DNA of 64,000 nucleotides, from positions 171,813 through 235,812 of the IMG/VR virus record IMGVR_UViG_3300032562_000004; one strand, written 5' to 3'. Made by a program: the position numbers and the translations under genes. Source of the stretch: a virus. This document shows, one piece after another, positions 993 through 48,931 of this stretch. The notes beneath the pieces are model-generated. The model saw only the letters and a program-made list of their open reading frames with translations, searched no databases and was not told the DNA's origin. Each line of letters starts with the position of its first letter. The first letter of the stretch is position 1.

Positions 993-1082
993 TTAAACTG
1001 CTAATGTTTGGCGTTGTGCTGTACGAGCAGAGAAACGAATTCCCTTACCTGAAACAGTTACTTCGCCTTTAGATGCGTTTGC
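993..1082 (-). other. tmRNA tag-peptide reading frame
   Basis: The resume codon GCA (1080-1082) opens the context GCAAACGC, like GCAAACGAC of many bacterial tmRNAs. The frame runs 29 codons to TAA (993-995). The tag begins ANASKGEVTV and ends QTLAV. It is about three times the common length, and is basic (four Arg and two Lys against one Glu). The end LAV replaces the usual LAA. The resume codon is inferred from this context, not measured. Confidence 0.7.
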
Positions 1083-1227
1083 ATTTAAGTTTTTCGCTTG
1101 ATTTACAGTCATCGCCTACTGTGTTGCCTCTTTCATTATCTCACCATGTCGAAACCTTGTCATCCCCACTGAAACATACTACAGCTTTTGGCCTCGCTAC
1201 CGATAACTCGGTTCGGTAATATGCTTC

Positions 1228-1290
1228 GGTGGAGATGCCGGGAATCGAACCCGGGTCCACAGCGCCTTCACTACGAAGGAATTACAACAA
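1228..1290 (-). ncRNA. ssrA: tmRNA acceptor piece
   Basis: This segment holds the TTCGATT T-loop, the 3' acceptor strand and, upstream, CGCTGTG, which can pair (with wobbles) with CATGGTG in the coding piece to form helix P2. A CCTTC/GAAGG hairpin lies just before it. The 5' boundary is set by the stop codon of the cold-shock gene at 1295. Confidence 0.75.
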
Positions 1291-1294
1291 TTCT

Positions 1295-1498
1295 TTACAG
1301 CGGAAGAATATTTGATGCTTGCTTGCCTTTAGGGCCTGCCACTACATCGAATGTTACCGCTTGATTCTCTTTTAAACTCTTAAAACCATTTGTGCTAATT
1401 GCGGAAAAATGTGCAAACAATTCCTCACCACCAGCATCGGGGGTAATAAATCCAAACCCTTTTGCATCATTAAACCACTTTACTTTACCTGTTGCCAT
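1295..1498 (-). CDS. CspA-family cold-shock protein
   Basis: The 67-residue product is a single OB-fold cold-shock domain of standard length. KGFGFI (residues 14-19) is RNP1 and ELFAHFSAI (27-35) matches RNP2. Such proteins bind single-stranded nucleic acid and melt RNA structure. A sigma70 promoter (TTGACA-N18-TATAAT, 1526-1555) gives a 30-base leader with the RBS AAGGAAG. The stop codon sits just upstream of the tmRNA acceptor piece, so the gene and tmRNA are likely co-transcribed, and an RNA chaperone would be made with a structured RNA. Phage-borne csp genes are known but not universal. Confidence 0.92.
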
Positions 1499-3403: not shown

Positions 3404-3774
3404 TGTTCTCTCTTTAAAAAGTTAGCTAGCTTAGGTGGTTCCCATCCCAATGGTTTAAGAATTTTACCATCTTCACGACGGCGTACTTTGCCCAGTTGAC
3501 GGTCAATTTTGGCAAAGTTAGTAGCCATTACCTCACGCCAAGCACCTTCACCATCTGCGCCCATCGAATTGATTGCTCCGATAGTAACGACAATAATATC
3601 GATTAAAGCATCAAGAGTTTCAACTTGATTTTTATTAGCAATAGCTACTTGTAGCTCGTCGTATTCTTCTGTAATCAATTTGGAGTAAAGTCTAAACTGA
3701 TCATCATTCATGCCTGAGATAGTCTGCTCGCAAGCTGTCATAAATTTTGCTGAATCCTTAAACGGGTTTGTCAT
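3400..3774 (-). CDS. MazG-like all-alpha NTP pyrophosphohydrolase
   Basis: A 124-residue helical protein with the EExxE...DxxxD layout of all-alpha NTP-PPases: EEYDEL near residue 36 and DALIDIIVVTIGA near 55-67. The family hydrolyses (d)NTPs or related alarmones to monophosphates and PPi. The start was placed at the ATG at 3774 because it overlaps the upstream stop as ATGA and follows AAGGAAAAAG; an in-frame ATG 48 bases upstream lies inside the previous gene. Phage MazG proteins are thought to balance nucleotide pools or ppGpp. Substrate unknown. Confidence 0.8.
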   Translation of the reverse strand: MTNPFKDSAKFMTACEQTISGMNDDQFRLYSKLITEEYDELQVAIANKNQVETLDALIDIIVVTIGAINSMGADGEGAWREVMATNFAKIDRQLGKVRRREDGKILKPLGWEPPKLANFLKREH

Positions 3775-5486: not shown

Positions 5487-5529
5487 CTATTTTGGTAACC
5501 TAATAAAATTAACGAAAGATAAATATGAA

Positions 5530-5580
5530 CTAAATAAGTGTAGTTCGCGATCCTGGCAGATCCAACTACTCTAACAGTTA
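5530..5580 (+). promoter_or_regulatory. Late-type promoter and 5' stem-loop leader, copy 1
   Basis: CTAAATA (5530-5536) is followed at once by AGTGTAGTTCGCG, an inner stem GATC/GATC with loop CTGGCA, and CCAACTACTCTAA. The outer stem GTAGTT/AACTAC pairs 5540-5545 with 5564-5569. The same leader occurs at 36963-37010 and, on the minus strand, at 31026-31072. Confidence 0.7.
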
Positions 5581-5597
5581 AAAAGGAACTATTAGCA

Positions 5598-6338
5598 ATG
5601 ACTATTTACACGCTTTACATTAAGACGCATAAGAAAACAGGACTAAAATATTTAGGTCAAACTCATTACGATCCCTATGAATACAAAGGTTCGGGGATTG
5701 ATTGGAAAAAACATATTAAACAGTATGGAGACGATATTACTACTCAAGTTATTTATTCCGGAAAAAATCGTAATGAAATGTCGTCCTTGGGCAGATATTA
5801 CAGCAACCTATACCGCATTACAACTTCTGTGGATGATTTTGGCAACAGAATTTGGGCTAACAGAACTATAGAAAACGGTGGAGGCGGATGGAACATAGGT
5901 AAAACATACTCTACAGAAGAACGAAAAAAGTTTGGGCATACTAAGCATAAGGGTTCTAAACGAACAGATAAACAAAAACAAAAAATGAAGGATAATCACG
6001 CAGATTTTTCTGGTAGCAATAATCCTAACTATGGCAAAAAAGCAAAAGATTCAACACTTACAAAAATGAGAGTCTCAAAAGTAAGAGTATGTCGCATAGT
6101 TGATCGCAAAGAAATGTCTGTAAACGAACTTACTGGCTGGATTAAGCGAGGCTGTAATCTAAAAGACAACTATCGACATGATCCTACTATCTATTCATTT
6201 ACTAACCTAATAACTAACGAAACTATTACTGCTACTAAACGAGAAATGATTGAACGATACAATCTAGATCAAAGTGCTATGAGTAGAGTATTAACCAGAA
6301 AGTTAAAATCTACTAAGGGATGGTCTTTAACTTTGTAG
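5598..6338 (+). CDS. GIY-YIG-type homing endonuclease with C-terminal DNA-binding repeats
   Basis: LYIKTHKKTGLKYLGQT (residues 6-22) is the GIY-YIG core, with YKGSGIDW and HIKQYGDD behind it. A NUMOD3-like stretch lies around residues 105-135. The C-terminal 80 residues hold two helix-turn-helix-like modules, the second typical of NUMOD1 (TNETITATKREMIERYN...MSRVLTRK). It is one of few plus-strand genes, has its own late-type promoter and stem-loop leader and a good RBS (AAGGAAC), and its last 12 bases overlap the convergent RNase H gene. This is the layout of a free-standing mobile endonuclease cassette. Confidence 0.88.
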   Translation: MTIYTLYIKTHKKTGLKYLGQTHYDPYEYKGSGIDWKKHIKQYGDDITTQVIYSGKNRNEMSSLGRYYSNLYRITTSVDDFGNRIWANRTIENGGGGWNIGKTYSTEERKKFGHTKHKGSKRTDKQKQKMKDNHADFSGSNNPNYGKKAKDSTLTKMRVSKVRVCRIVDRKEMSVNELTGWIKRGCNLKDNYRHDPTIYSFTNLITNETITATKREMIERYNLDQSAMSRVLTRKLKSTKGWSLTL

Positions 6339-30884: not shown

Positions 30885-30972
30885 ACACTTTTGGCTAAAC
30901 GGTAGCGAATCGCTTTACCAAGGCAGGCTCCGCCTACACCGGCCGTTTTACAACGGTCCTAAGGGTGTTCTT
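30885..30972. other. Unexplained cloverleaf-like structured locus
   Basis: In an otherwise gene-free stretch (30820-31069), a long imperfect helix (GACACTTTTGG with CCTAAGGGTGTTC) encloses three hairpins: GGTAGCG-AAT-CGCTTTACC, AGGC-AGGCTCC-GCCT and CCGTT-TTAC-AACGG. GC content is far above the flanks. Two pairs of the outer helix are G-U as read on the plus strand and would be A-C mismatches on the minus strand, which favours a plus-strand RNA. It lacks a T-loop, anticodon arm and CCA, so it is not a tRNA. Confidence 0.5.
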
Positions 30973-31025
30973 TACATATAAGTATTTACCGAAGTACAGT
31001 TTTCAAAATGCCAACGATTCATAGC

Positions 31026-31072
31026 ATTAGAGTAGTTGGATATCCCCATATCGCGAACTACACTTTTATTTA
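31026..31072 (-). promoter_or_regulatory. Late-type promoter and 5' stem-loop leader, copy 3 (orphan)
   Basis: Complement: ATAAATA, then AAGTGTAGTTCGCG, inner stem GATAT/ATATC with loop GGGG, then CCAACTACTCTAA. Outer stem GTAGTT/AACTAC pairs 31056-31061 with 31032-31037. Unlike copies 1 and 2, no homing endonuclease follows; the downstream stretch holds only the structured locus and then the DsbA-like gene. Confidence 0.65.
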
Positions 31073-36949: not shown

Positions 36950-36969
36950 TATTTAGTTAAAACTAAATA
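36950..36969. promoter_or_regulatory. Divergent late promoters forming a perfect inverted repeat
   Basis: TATTTAGTT (36950-36958), two A, AACTAAATA (36961-36969): two CTAAATA boxes point away from each other, one toward the Dps-like gene (minus), one toward the HNH cassette (plus). Confidence 0.6.
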
Positions 36970-37010
36970 GAAGTGTAGTTCGCGGATCTCGACAATCCCA
37001 ACTACTCTAA
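36963..37010 (+). promoter_or_regulatory. Late-type promoter and 5' stem-loop leader, copy 2
   Basis: CTAAATA (36963-36969), then AAGTGTAGTTCGCG, inner stem GGAT/ATCC with loop CTCGACA, then CAACTACTCTAA. Outer stem GTAGTT/AACTAC pairs 36975-36980 with 37000-37005. Inner stem sequence differs from copies 1 and 3 while pairing is kept. Confidence 0.7.
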
Positions 37011-37031
37011 CGCTTATAAGGAGCAATCAGC

Positions 37032-37613
37032 ATGAGTATTTACAGAAAAGATAGCTACCATCGTAAAATATACGAGGATCACTATGGGCCAATTCCAAAA
37101 GATTCAGAAGGTCGTAGCTACGAAATACATCATATAGACGGAAATCACGAAAATAACAACATTGATAATCTTCTCTGTGTAAGCATACAGGAACATTATA
37201 ATATACACTATTCTCAAGGAGATTTCAAGGCTTGCCTTATAATGTCTAAAAGAATGGACATTTCTCCGGAAGAAAAATCGAGGCTAGCAAAAATAACTAA
37301 CGCAGGCAAAAACAATCCAAGTTATGGGATTTATTGGTGGACTAATGGAGTTGAAGAAAAGAAATCAAAAACTCAACCGGGACCAGAATGGACTCGCGGA
37401 AGATCTGCTATATTAAAAACTCGTGTATCGTCTACTATAGTTAAAAAGGATATTCGAGCAGGGGCAAAAAATACAAGTTATGGAAAATATTGGTGGACTA
37501 ACGGAATAGATAGCATTAAATCAGATAAGTGCCCAGAGGGATATTACAGAGGGGTAGGAGAAATACAGAGAATGAAGTCAAGAAATAAGTTGGCTAAATC
37601 TTGGATTTTTTAG
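37032..37613 (+). CDS. HNH homing endonuclease
   Basis: EIHHIDGNHENNNIDNLLCV (about 36-55) is the HNH core with HH, an Asn of the ENNNIDNL loop and, further on, EHYNIHY. The C-terminal part has two YGxYWWTNG repeats (NPSYGIYWWTNGVEE and NTSYGKYWWTNGIDS), probable DNA-binding modules. Plus-strand cassette with its own late promoter, stem-loop leader and RBS AAGGAGC; the 3' end overlaps a convergent gene by 20 bases. Confidence 0.87.
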   Translation: MSIYRKDSYHRKIYEDHYGPIPKDSEGRSYEIHHIDGNHENNNIDNLLCVSIQEHYNIHYSQGDFKACLIMSKRMDISPEEKSRLAKITNAGKNNPSYGIYWWTNGVEEKKSKTQPGPEWTRGRSAILKTRVSSTIVKKDIRAGAKNTSYGKYWWTNGIDSIKSDKCPEGYYRGVGEIQRMKSRNKLAKSWIF

Positions 37614-46674: not shown

Positions 46675-48931
46675 CAAGAACAATAATACCAGAATTGTCT
46701 ACAATCGCCAATGGAGCAGTTTGGATAATTGTAAAATCAATCTTATCATCGATTATGATAGCATTGACGGTGCAGTCAGATAAGCGTTCAAACAAAATCT
46801 TCTTAGACAAAGGTACACGAATCAATTCGTCAATCTTACGATTAAGTGGACGAGCACCCATCTTAGGATCATAACCTTTATCAGCTAGCATATCAATAAC
46901 TGCTTCGGATAAATTAAGTCTAATATTTTTATTGTTCAAACTAACTTGTAACTGTTCAACAAATTTAAGTACAACTTTCTTAATAGCAAGGGTATCAAGT
47001 TTCTTAAACTTACAAATTTGATCGATACGATTACGCAACTCAGGTTTGAAGAAGTCCTTCATTGCTTTATCTTCTGATCCTGTTTTTTGTAGTGCTTGAC
47101 CAAATCCAATGTTATTGTTTTCGTTATCGCGAGCACCTAAGTTACTTGTCATAATGATAATAGTATTCTTAAGGTTAACAGTTTTGCCGTTAGCACTAGT
47201 AATACGAGCTTCGTCTAACATCTGTAACATAATGTTAATAACATCAGGGTGAGCTTTTTCAATTTCATCAAACAGGATGATTGAATACGGATTCTTACTA
47301 ATATCACTGATTAACTTGCCGCCACCTACATTGCCATCTTCAAATCCTACATATCCTGGAGGCGCACCAATCAACGAACTTACAGTATGCTTTTCTTGAT
47401 ATTCTGACATATCATACTTTAATAATTGCATATCTAAGTTTGTAGCTAGTAACTTAGCAAGTTCTGTTTTACCAGTACCAGTTGGTCCTAAGAATAAGAA
47501 ACTAGCAATAGGACGATTGTCGTTGCCAATACCAGAAAAGTTAATATAAACTCGCTCAAGTACGCTGTCTACTGCTTCGTCCTGACCATATAATTTTTCT
47601 TTAATATTCGATTCAAGTTCTACAATATTAGCTGAACGCTCGTTTTGTAATCGATCCATAGGAACTTCAGTAACACGACTTAATTGTTCCATAATCATTT
47701 CTTTAGTAATAGTTACATTACCTTGATCCTTAACTCGTTCCTTAGCGCAAGCGCCGTCTAACAAGTCAATACTCTTATCTGGATTCTTACGGTCGTGTAT
47801 ATAACGACCTGATAAATCTACAGCGGCCGTGATAGCATCTGTATCAATTAATACATTGTGGAATGATTCTAAGCGTGGGCTAAGTCCAATAAGGATTTGT
47901 TCTGTAACTTCGTTAGTTGGTTCATCGATACTTACACGATGGAAACGACGCATTAACGCACGATCCTTTTCAAAGGACTCGTAGTATTCTTCCCATGTTG
48001 TACTTGCGATTACCTTAAGTTTACCTTTAGTAATAGCAGGTTTTAACATATTAGCAAAGTCAAGTGTAGATTGTGAGCTAGCGCCAGCACCTTTCATAGT
48101 GTGTGCTTCGTCTACAAACAAAATACAATTACCTTTAGTTTCTAATGCGCCAATAACTTGTTTGAACTTTTCTTCAAATTCGCCGCGATATTTAGAACCA
48201 GCTAACAATGATCCAATCTCTAATGCCCATACTTCATGAGCAATTAAGAACTTAGGAACACGATTATTAATAATCTCTTGAGCTAGGCCTTCTGCGATAG
48301 CAGTTTTACCTACCCCGGGATCTCCAACCATCAATACATTAGCTTTAAATTTACGAGCTAATACTGTAATCATTTCATCAAGTTCAGCACCGCGGCCAAT
48401 CATTGGCTCAAGGCGATCTTCTACCGCCATCTTAGTTAAGTTAACACAGTATTCAGTTAAAATTTCATCTGCTTGCGTAGTTGTAAGAACTACATCATCA
48501 TGTTTGTAGTGTGCTTGCCAGTATTCCATGAACTCTTGTTTCTTAACACCATACTTTAATAAAAAGTAATGTGCGTGTGAATTATTTTCAGCCATCATAG
48601 CAAGATACAAGTCGCCAGTATTCATTGAACGGCGCCCTGTGAACAATACTTGTGTCATTGCTCTGTTGAAGCAACGCTCGAGAGCATTTGTTTTCTTAGG
48701 CTGATTGTCTTTTTTAGTAGTAACCAAACTAGTTAAACTTTGTAAGTAAGCATCTAACTCCATATCTAATAAATCTACACTAGTCCCAAAAGATTCTAGT
48801 ACTTTATAAAATGGAGCATGGCGTATTAATACCAATAAGACGTGCTCAGTTAAAACATATTCGTGTTGACGCTCTTTAGCCAATTTAACAGCTTGGGCGA
48901 CGATTTGTTCGATTTCTTTATTGTTTTGCAT
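46652..48931 (-). CDS. clpA: ClpA-like AAA+ unfoldase
   Basis: 759 residues with a Clp N-domain (1-145), AAA D1 (Walker A GDPGVGKT 203-210, Walker B ILFVDEAH 270-277) and D2 (GPTGTGKT 482-489, IILFDEIEKAH 551-561). There is no ClpB-type middle domain between them. NIGFG (607-611) sits where ClpA and ClpX carry the IGL/IGF loop that docks on ClpP. So it should unfold proteins for the host ClpP rather than disaggregate. Sigma70 promoter and RBS AAAGGAAA upstream. Confidence 0.9.
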   Translation of the reverse strand: MQNNKEIEQIVAQAVKLAKERQHEYVLTEHVLLVLIRHAPFYKVLESFGTSVDLLDMELDAYLQSLTSLVTTKKDNQPKKTNALERCFNRAMTQVLFTGRRSMNTGDLYLAMMAENNSHAHYFLLKYGVKKQEFMEYWQAHYKHDDVVLTTTQADEILTEYCVNLTKMAVEDRLEPMIGRGAELDEMITVLARKFKANVLMVGDPGVGKTAIAEGLAQEIINNRVPKFLIAHEVWALEIGSLLAGSKYRGEFEEKFKQVIGALETKGNCILFVDEAHTMKGAGASSQSTLDFANMLKPAITKGKLKVIASTTWEEYYESFEKDRALMRRFHRVSIDEPTNEVTEQILIGLSPRLESFHNVLIDTDAITAAVDLSGRYIHDRKNPDKSIDLLDGACAKERVKDQGNVTITKEMIMEQLSRVTEVPMDRLQNERSANIVELESNIKEKLYGQDEAVDSVLERVYINFSGIGNDNRPIASFLFLGPTGTGKTELAKLLATNLDMQLLKYDMSEYQEKHTVSSLIGAPPGYVGFEDGNVGGGKLISDISKNPYSIILFDEIEKAHPDVINIMLQMLDEARITSANGKTVNLKNTIIIMTSNLGARDNENNNIGFGQALQKTGSEDKAMKDFFKPELRNRIDQICKFKKLDTLAIKKVVLKFVEQLQVSLNNKNIRLNLSEAVIDMLADKGYDPKMGARPLNRKIDELIRVPLSKKILFERLSDCTVNAIIIDDKIDFTIIQTAPLAIVDNSGIIVLDGESPNV

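Follow-up and report, generated by a model that had tools for sequence, protein, structure and literature searches.

We analysed a window of 64,000 nt, taken from a viral parent record of 235,812 bases. A stem-loop element occurs three times in this window, at positions 5537-5572 and 36972-37008 on the plus strand and 31029-31064 on the minus strand, where shuffled sequences give an expectation of 0. A first-pass annotation, made from the letters of the window, had placed three copies at these sites. It also described a fixed outer stem, with inner stems that vary yet still pair, and this description holds for all three. Each copy follows a late-type box, with a gap of 0 bases (copy 1) or 2 bases (copies 2 and 3), again as annotated. 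Note that TAAATA sits shortly upstream of many genes in the window. Nuclease genes of the GIY-YIG type (NUMOD3) and HNH_3 type follow copies 1 and 2, as proposed, and copy 3 has no nuclease gene.

At copy 1, the forward TAAATA box (5531-5536, plus strand) reads toward the nuclease gene, with a second box at 5520-5525. The gene encodes 246 amino acids and spans 5598-6338 on the plus strand. A further late-type box, on the opposite strand, lies within nuclease codons 2-4 (5603-5608, minus strand; TATTTA on the plus strand). A structured antisense RNA is predicted at 5537-5596, on the minus strand, where our covariance model R1, built from 72 copies, gives a match of 59.0 bits. This minus-strand RNA would form hairpin P1' (5540-5569) and hairpin P2' (about 5571-5595), the latter holding the complement of the Shine-Dalgarno sequence. 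Fold energies are -18.5 kcal/mol for the minus strand (z -3.1) and -11.8 for the plus strand (z -1.0).

Copy 2 has the same layout. Its forward late-type box (36964-36969, plus strand) points toward the HNH_3 gene, which encodes 193 amino acids (37032-37613, plus strand). The opposite-strand box is at 37037-37042 (minus strand; TATTTA on the plus strand), and a 5-nt spacer (37032-37036) leads from it to the predicted RNA start at 37031. The predicted antisense RNA spans 36972-37031 on the minus strand (R1 match 70.3 bits). Between a ferritin-like gene and this cassette, at 36950-36969, late boxes stand back to back and a few bases apart (CTAAATAAT on the minus strand, ACTAAATAG on the plus strand). 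At copy 3, the late-type box is at 31067-31072 (minus strand) and the element at 31010-31064 (plus strand; 44.0 bits with R1). Here, P1' is intact, the P2' pairs are broken and the opposite-strand box is gone. Fused to the element is a 16-codon remnant of a nuclease-type gene (30972-31022, minus strand), reading MNRWHFENC, which resembles the C-terminus (RWHFENC) of the gene after the element on contig L028. Judged from its sequence, copy 3 is a decayed cassette, holding the remnant of a deleted nuclease-type gene.

The first-pass annotation had proposed a search for further copies in relatives, and very many were found using the covariance model and a scan of IMG/VR. Recent duplication of a longer block, raised there as an alternative, does not account for the copies: their similarity extends no further than the two late boxes. 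With R1, the parent record contains 7 copies: the 3 in the window and 4 more that have diverged. Two of the latter, at 48031-48097 and 151967-152031 of the parent record, have the stem GTAGGT/ACCTAC, carry TATATA in place of TATTTA, and share a CAGCTCATGTCAAGTATATA start. Scanning IMG/VR for the outer stem identified at least 120 contigs for one sequence class, nearly all with a single anatomy. Typically, the TAAATA box is followed after 0-4 nt (mostly 2) by hairpin 1, hairpin 2 with the Shine-Dalgarno sequence, TCAGC, the start codon, and TATTTA. The highest load was 12 copies, in one record of 333 kb. Among isolates, Rhizobium phage RHph_I1_18 (MN988519.1, at about 80290-80384) has the element with its full anatomy and a TTG start. 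No element was found at homing endonuclease gene homologues of eight further phages, T4-like or similar, or of cyanophages and phages of Vibrio and Burkholderia. In one Vibrio relative, the leader is not present. Likewise, the tested phages of enterics, Vibrio, Aeromonas, cyanobacteria and others are without it. In GTDB genomes, we found 7 pattern matches, 0 with the element anatomy, and hence nothing to suggest that bacteria or prophages serve as a reservoir.

Nearly all copies precede GIY-YIG, HNH or other nuclease genes. Of the 148 copies with enough downstream sequence, 137 precede an open frame that is 110 codons or longer or runs off the contig, and the frame is short or broken in 11. 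Pfam matches for 83 downstream proteins include NUMOD3 (23), HNH (11), HNH_3 (9) and HNH_5 (6), together with GIY-YIG/SegE and DUF559-type domains. By these families, the cassettes are of the homing-endonuclease type, with homing itself a prediction. The two copies that lack a nuclease frame altogether (window copy 3/L007, and L102) have lost both P2 and the box. Identical inner hairpins occur beside unrelated nucleases and hence the module has been exchanged between genes. Elsewhere, the element heads other nuclease types: DUF7487 with a TnsA-like N-terminus, and DUF559/PvuRts1I-like (L018:12183-13073 and L110:7351-8193). In same-direction cassettes (39 of 103), several upstream TAA stop codons appear inside the TAAATA box. 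Cassette insertion may target gene ends that carry a late box. Between different copies, some inner hairpins, such as GGAATTGGCGTTCC and GGAACGCCAATTCC, are exact reverse complements of each other, as though an inversion of the loop had taken place.

We aligned 72 diverse copies and scored pairing in the antisense reading. Standard pairs account for 94.4% of cells, and 15 of 19 pairs have changed on both sides. The observed paired fraction, number of changed cells and score were not reached in any of 500 shuffles, and pairing in slid controls is 36-52%. Compensatory types are present at all 6 outer P1 pairs, and the only unpaired class is A.C. A relaxed search recovered other outer stems, each with its complement, including GTGGTT, GTCGTT, GTGAGT, GTAGTC, GTAGAT, GTAAGT and GTCTGT. 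P2 is more variable than P1. Two arms of P2' are CTAA and TCAG, conserved words that had seemed unpaired. These are joined through a pair that is A.C in the sense strand and G.U in the antisense strand, in 207 of 210 copies. Two candidate pairings were set aside. The supposed outermost P1 pair, columns 42-43 with 82-83, was moved to P2', which better fits compensatory C-G to U-A changes. A closing helix, TAAATA/TATTTA, lengthened by its flanking bases, showed no covariation there.

Counting mismatches can indicate which strand carries a fold. If the selected RNA were the mRNA, G.U pairs would be tolerated and A.C pairs would not. We made this comparison for the mRNA strand of 210 non-redundant copies which, being related, are not independent events. 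Non-Watson-Crick pairs comprise about 167 A.C and 2 G.U, where each A.C is a G.U on the opposite strand. Hence, the fold has been selected on the opposite strand. The bias (A.C:G.U) recurs in each informative helix: 6:0 in outer P1, 86:1 at the R-Y pair, 8:0 at inner pairs 1-2 and 67:1 in P2, the last from a count that penalised both types alike. It vanishes near the hairpin loop. In the scan of the viral collection, the R-Y pair takes the A.C form in at least 120 contigs and the G.U form in 1. Conditional pairing follows the antisense wobble rule: an A at base 84 is found with C or T (81 and 73 copies), and a G with C only (10 and 0). A more cautious count, restricted to contexts seen in both states, leaves about 18:1 context switches. 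Furthermore, the antisense strand folds lower in 127 of 140 copies (mean z of -2.0 versus -1.0). We conclude that the selected structure is probably encoded opposite the nuclease mRNA, and not in it. Both the two-hairpin fold and its strand are well supported.

These results alter the interpretation of the element. The first-pass annotation envisaged a functional RNA that travels with mobile nuclease genes, and the element is indeed structured, covarying and associated with unrelated nucleases. That it is a folded 5' leader of the nuclease mRNA is not supported, since the wobble is on the opposite strand and almost every gene has an opposite-strand box within its opening codons. The motif was also taken to be the 5' end of the message. 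With a T4-type late box, transcription starts about 6 nt past the last base of the box (PMC2988020), so the message would instead begin inside the motif. For the proximal box of copy 1, a T4-type sense start would cut the outer stem.

TATTTA, which is TAAATA on the opposite strand, occurs just past the start codon, and does so in each of the three reading frames (133/34/29; classes MTIY, MYL and MIF). This rules out a protein-level reason for its presence. The spacing between box and CAGC is 5 nt in most copies. Among 14 listed copies with no start codon between CAGC and the box, 10 keep the 5 nt, and their start codon is mostly upstream of CAGC. Note that entropy is similar for three spacings around the start codon, with the box-CAGC spacing no lower than its neighbours. 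Hence, the argument for the box rests on the frames and the shifted-start copies. In T4, the late box is 8 bp long and extends from -13 to -6, about one helical turn before the RNA start (PMC2988020). With this geometry, the 5-nt spacer puts the predicted +1 on GCUG, one base before P2' begins. The box is retained in 48 of 50 contexts where the upstream gene has the same direction and 67 of 71 where it is opposite. We reject service to a divergent neighbour as its sole reason, because it is equally kept in both. Three diverged copies in the parent record carry TATATA instead. Some distant copies, from relatives in Variovorax phage V45v66 and Pseudoalteromonas phage vB_Psh_XG4, retain the hairpins, adjoining a nuclease gene, and lack the backward TAAATA box. 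The box may therefore be lost, replaced or later in origin. Its features are those of a putative late promoter inside the nuclease gene.

On balance, we lean towards a model in which the nuclease gene of each cassette has a late antisense RNA gene nested in it, whose product limits nuclease translation; we infer promoter activity, the 3' end, mRNA pairing and repression. The backward phage late promoter, in the first nuclease codons, would drive an RNA of roughly 60-70 nt starting at the conserved GCUG. The transcript would fold as two nearly abutting hairpins, P2' of about 8 bp and P1' of 6 bp plus one R-Y pair plus 4-5 bp, with the complement of the Shine-Dalgarno sequence presented in the P2' loop. 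Its 3' end would be close to the late promoter that reads forward into the nuclease gene. No intrinsic terminator, and no good U-tract, was found past P1' in the window. Complementarity of the predicted RNA extends over the entire nuclease leader and its ribosome-binding site; the most likely action of the RNA is hence to pair with the mRNA and limit translation, late in infection. The predicted span covers the Shine-Dalgarno sequence, with the start codon just outside in most copies. G.U pairs would fold the antisense RNA and the matching A.C positions would leave the mRNA less tightly folded, an arrangement suited to antisense regulation. Points against the model are the missing U-tract, the absence of the backward box in some copies, and a P1 primary sequence conserved beyond the need of a purely cis-acting antisense RNA. 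All copies share P1 and GCUG, so that the RNAs of any of up to 12 cassettes per genome might pair with all leaders, forming a shared trans-acting brake that checks nuclease load by dose. This extension is speculative and we regard it as doubtful. If true, the RNA, rather than any single nuclease, would be the conserved core of the mobile family.

There are precedents for this kind of control. In IS10, the antisense RNA-OUT limits transposase by blocking ribosome binding (PMC5006887). Like RNA-OUT of IS10/Tn10, the predicted RNA is short and folded, would arise from a putative backward promoter inside a mobile nuclease gene, covers the translation start region and would end near the forward promoter. 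Unlike RNA-OUT, to which it has no sequence relation, it has two hairpins, phage late-type boxes rather than host promoters, and several unrelated nuclease families as partners. A further difference lies in the predicted start of the RNA, at the start codon or just 5' of it, which leaves the Shine-Dalgarno sequence covered and the AUG, in most copies, uncovered. Plasmid and toxin antisense RNAs of the CopA/RNAI type have two or more hairpins and are more structured than their targets, with G.U in the antisense becoming A.C in the target. The element resembles these in its more structured antisense strand. It differs in lacking incompatibility-like loop diversification within genomes: such groups were sought, and 2 identical hairpin pairs were seen against 2.3 expected, with no orthogonality. 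The leaders of T4 gene e, soc and I-TevI, and of Aeh1 mobE, also place a late box beside a stem-loop at a homing endonuclease translation start (PMC3014915). However, their structure is in the mRNA, whereas wobble in our element reflects opposite-strand selection, and the tested relatives of T4-type homing endonuclease genes are without it. No family in Rfam 15, including that for RNA-OUT, matches the element, and we found no paper on such an RNA in the open-access literature. We class it as a new RNA family with a known type of regulation, closest in its predicted action to RNA-OUT and outside the RNA-OUT sequence family.

Other explanations must be weighed. A folded leader in the nuclease mRNA could delay translation, if UAAAUA in read-through transcripts paired with UAUUUA past the start codon and late transcripts lacked the 5' arm, as in the logic of T4 gene e and I-TevI. 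The late box and the conserved hexamer are exact complements, the sense strand can also form hairpin 1, and T4 e, I-TevI, mobE and segB are precedents (PMC3014915). However, the 6-bp A-U helix is invariant, with no covariation in the bases beside it. Almost all of the wobble falls on the strand opposite to that expected of a sense RNA, and outer P1, up to AGT, would be upstream of the sense start. We consider this explanation unlikely. Slightly less likely still is that the antisense RNA is real but serves mainly as leader of the cassette's neighbour gene, or acts in trans on other targets. The upstream neighbour does face away in 71 of 121 contexts, and many copies, up to 12 per genome, have P1 sequence in common. 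Against this, the box is equally kept beside same-direction neighbours, the gene next to copy 2 is served by a separate late box, 29 nt from the start of that gene, and copies without a nuclease frame (copy 3/L007, and L102) lost P2 and the box.

T4-like phages expose single-stranded DNA. The fold could then be a DNA hairpin on the opposite strand, used in replication, priming or recombination of the cassette; G.T pairs would yield an identical strand bias, and the two hairpins nearly abut. The distance from the late box to the first base that pairs is that of T4, which favours transcription instead, and the element decays along with the gene. We judge a role as DNA improbable. Finally, the same inner hairpins beside unrelated nucleases show that modules are exchanged, as they would be for a mere promoter-leader module, copied among nuclease genes by recombination and with no RNA function. 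This is very hard to sustain: compensatory types at 6 of 6 outer pairs, with A.C the sole unpaired class, require selection on pairing.

We return to the nested antisense RNA, probably a brake built into each nuclease cassette. Few mobile genes of large phages are as common as free-standing homing endonucleases. To our knowledge, the ways in which a phage limits the harm of carrying many such enzymes have been described mostly for a few T4 cases. A covarying antisense RNA common to unrelated nuclease families would, if confirmed, be a general answer to nuclease load, and would link phage gene drives to the antisense control of transposons. Model R1 offers a handle, combining sequence and structure, to find and annotate these cassettes. 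Similarly, counting A.C against G.U can assign a conserved fold to its strand.

Two other RNAs were apparent. The freshwater-2 family (RF02980) is, like the element, known from metagenomes as a phage leader RNA near a late-type box, and the two share contig L082; they differ in sequence, structure and gene context. On that contig, freshwater-2 (3490-3567, minus strand) comes right after a TAAATA box, ahead of a Shine-Dalgarno sequence and ATG. It may be a late leader in the same phages as the element. In the window itself, positions 1024-1330 (minus strand) match a permuted, betaproteobacterial-type tmRNA with 118 bits, in a phage record, and a tRNA-Met is nearby at 1785-1860.
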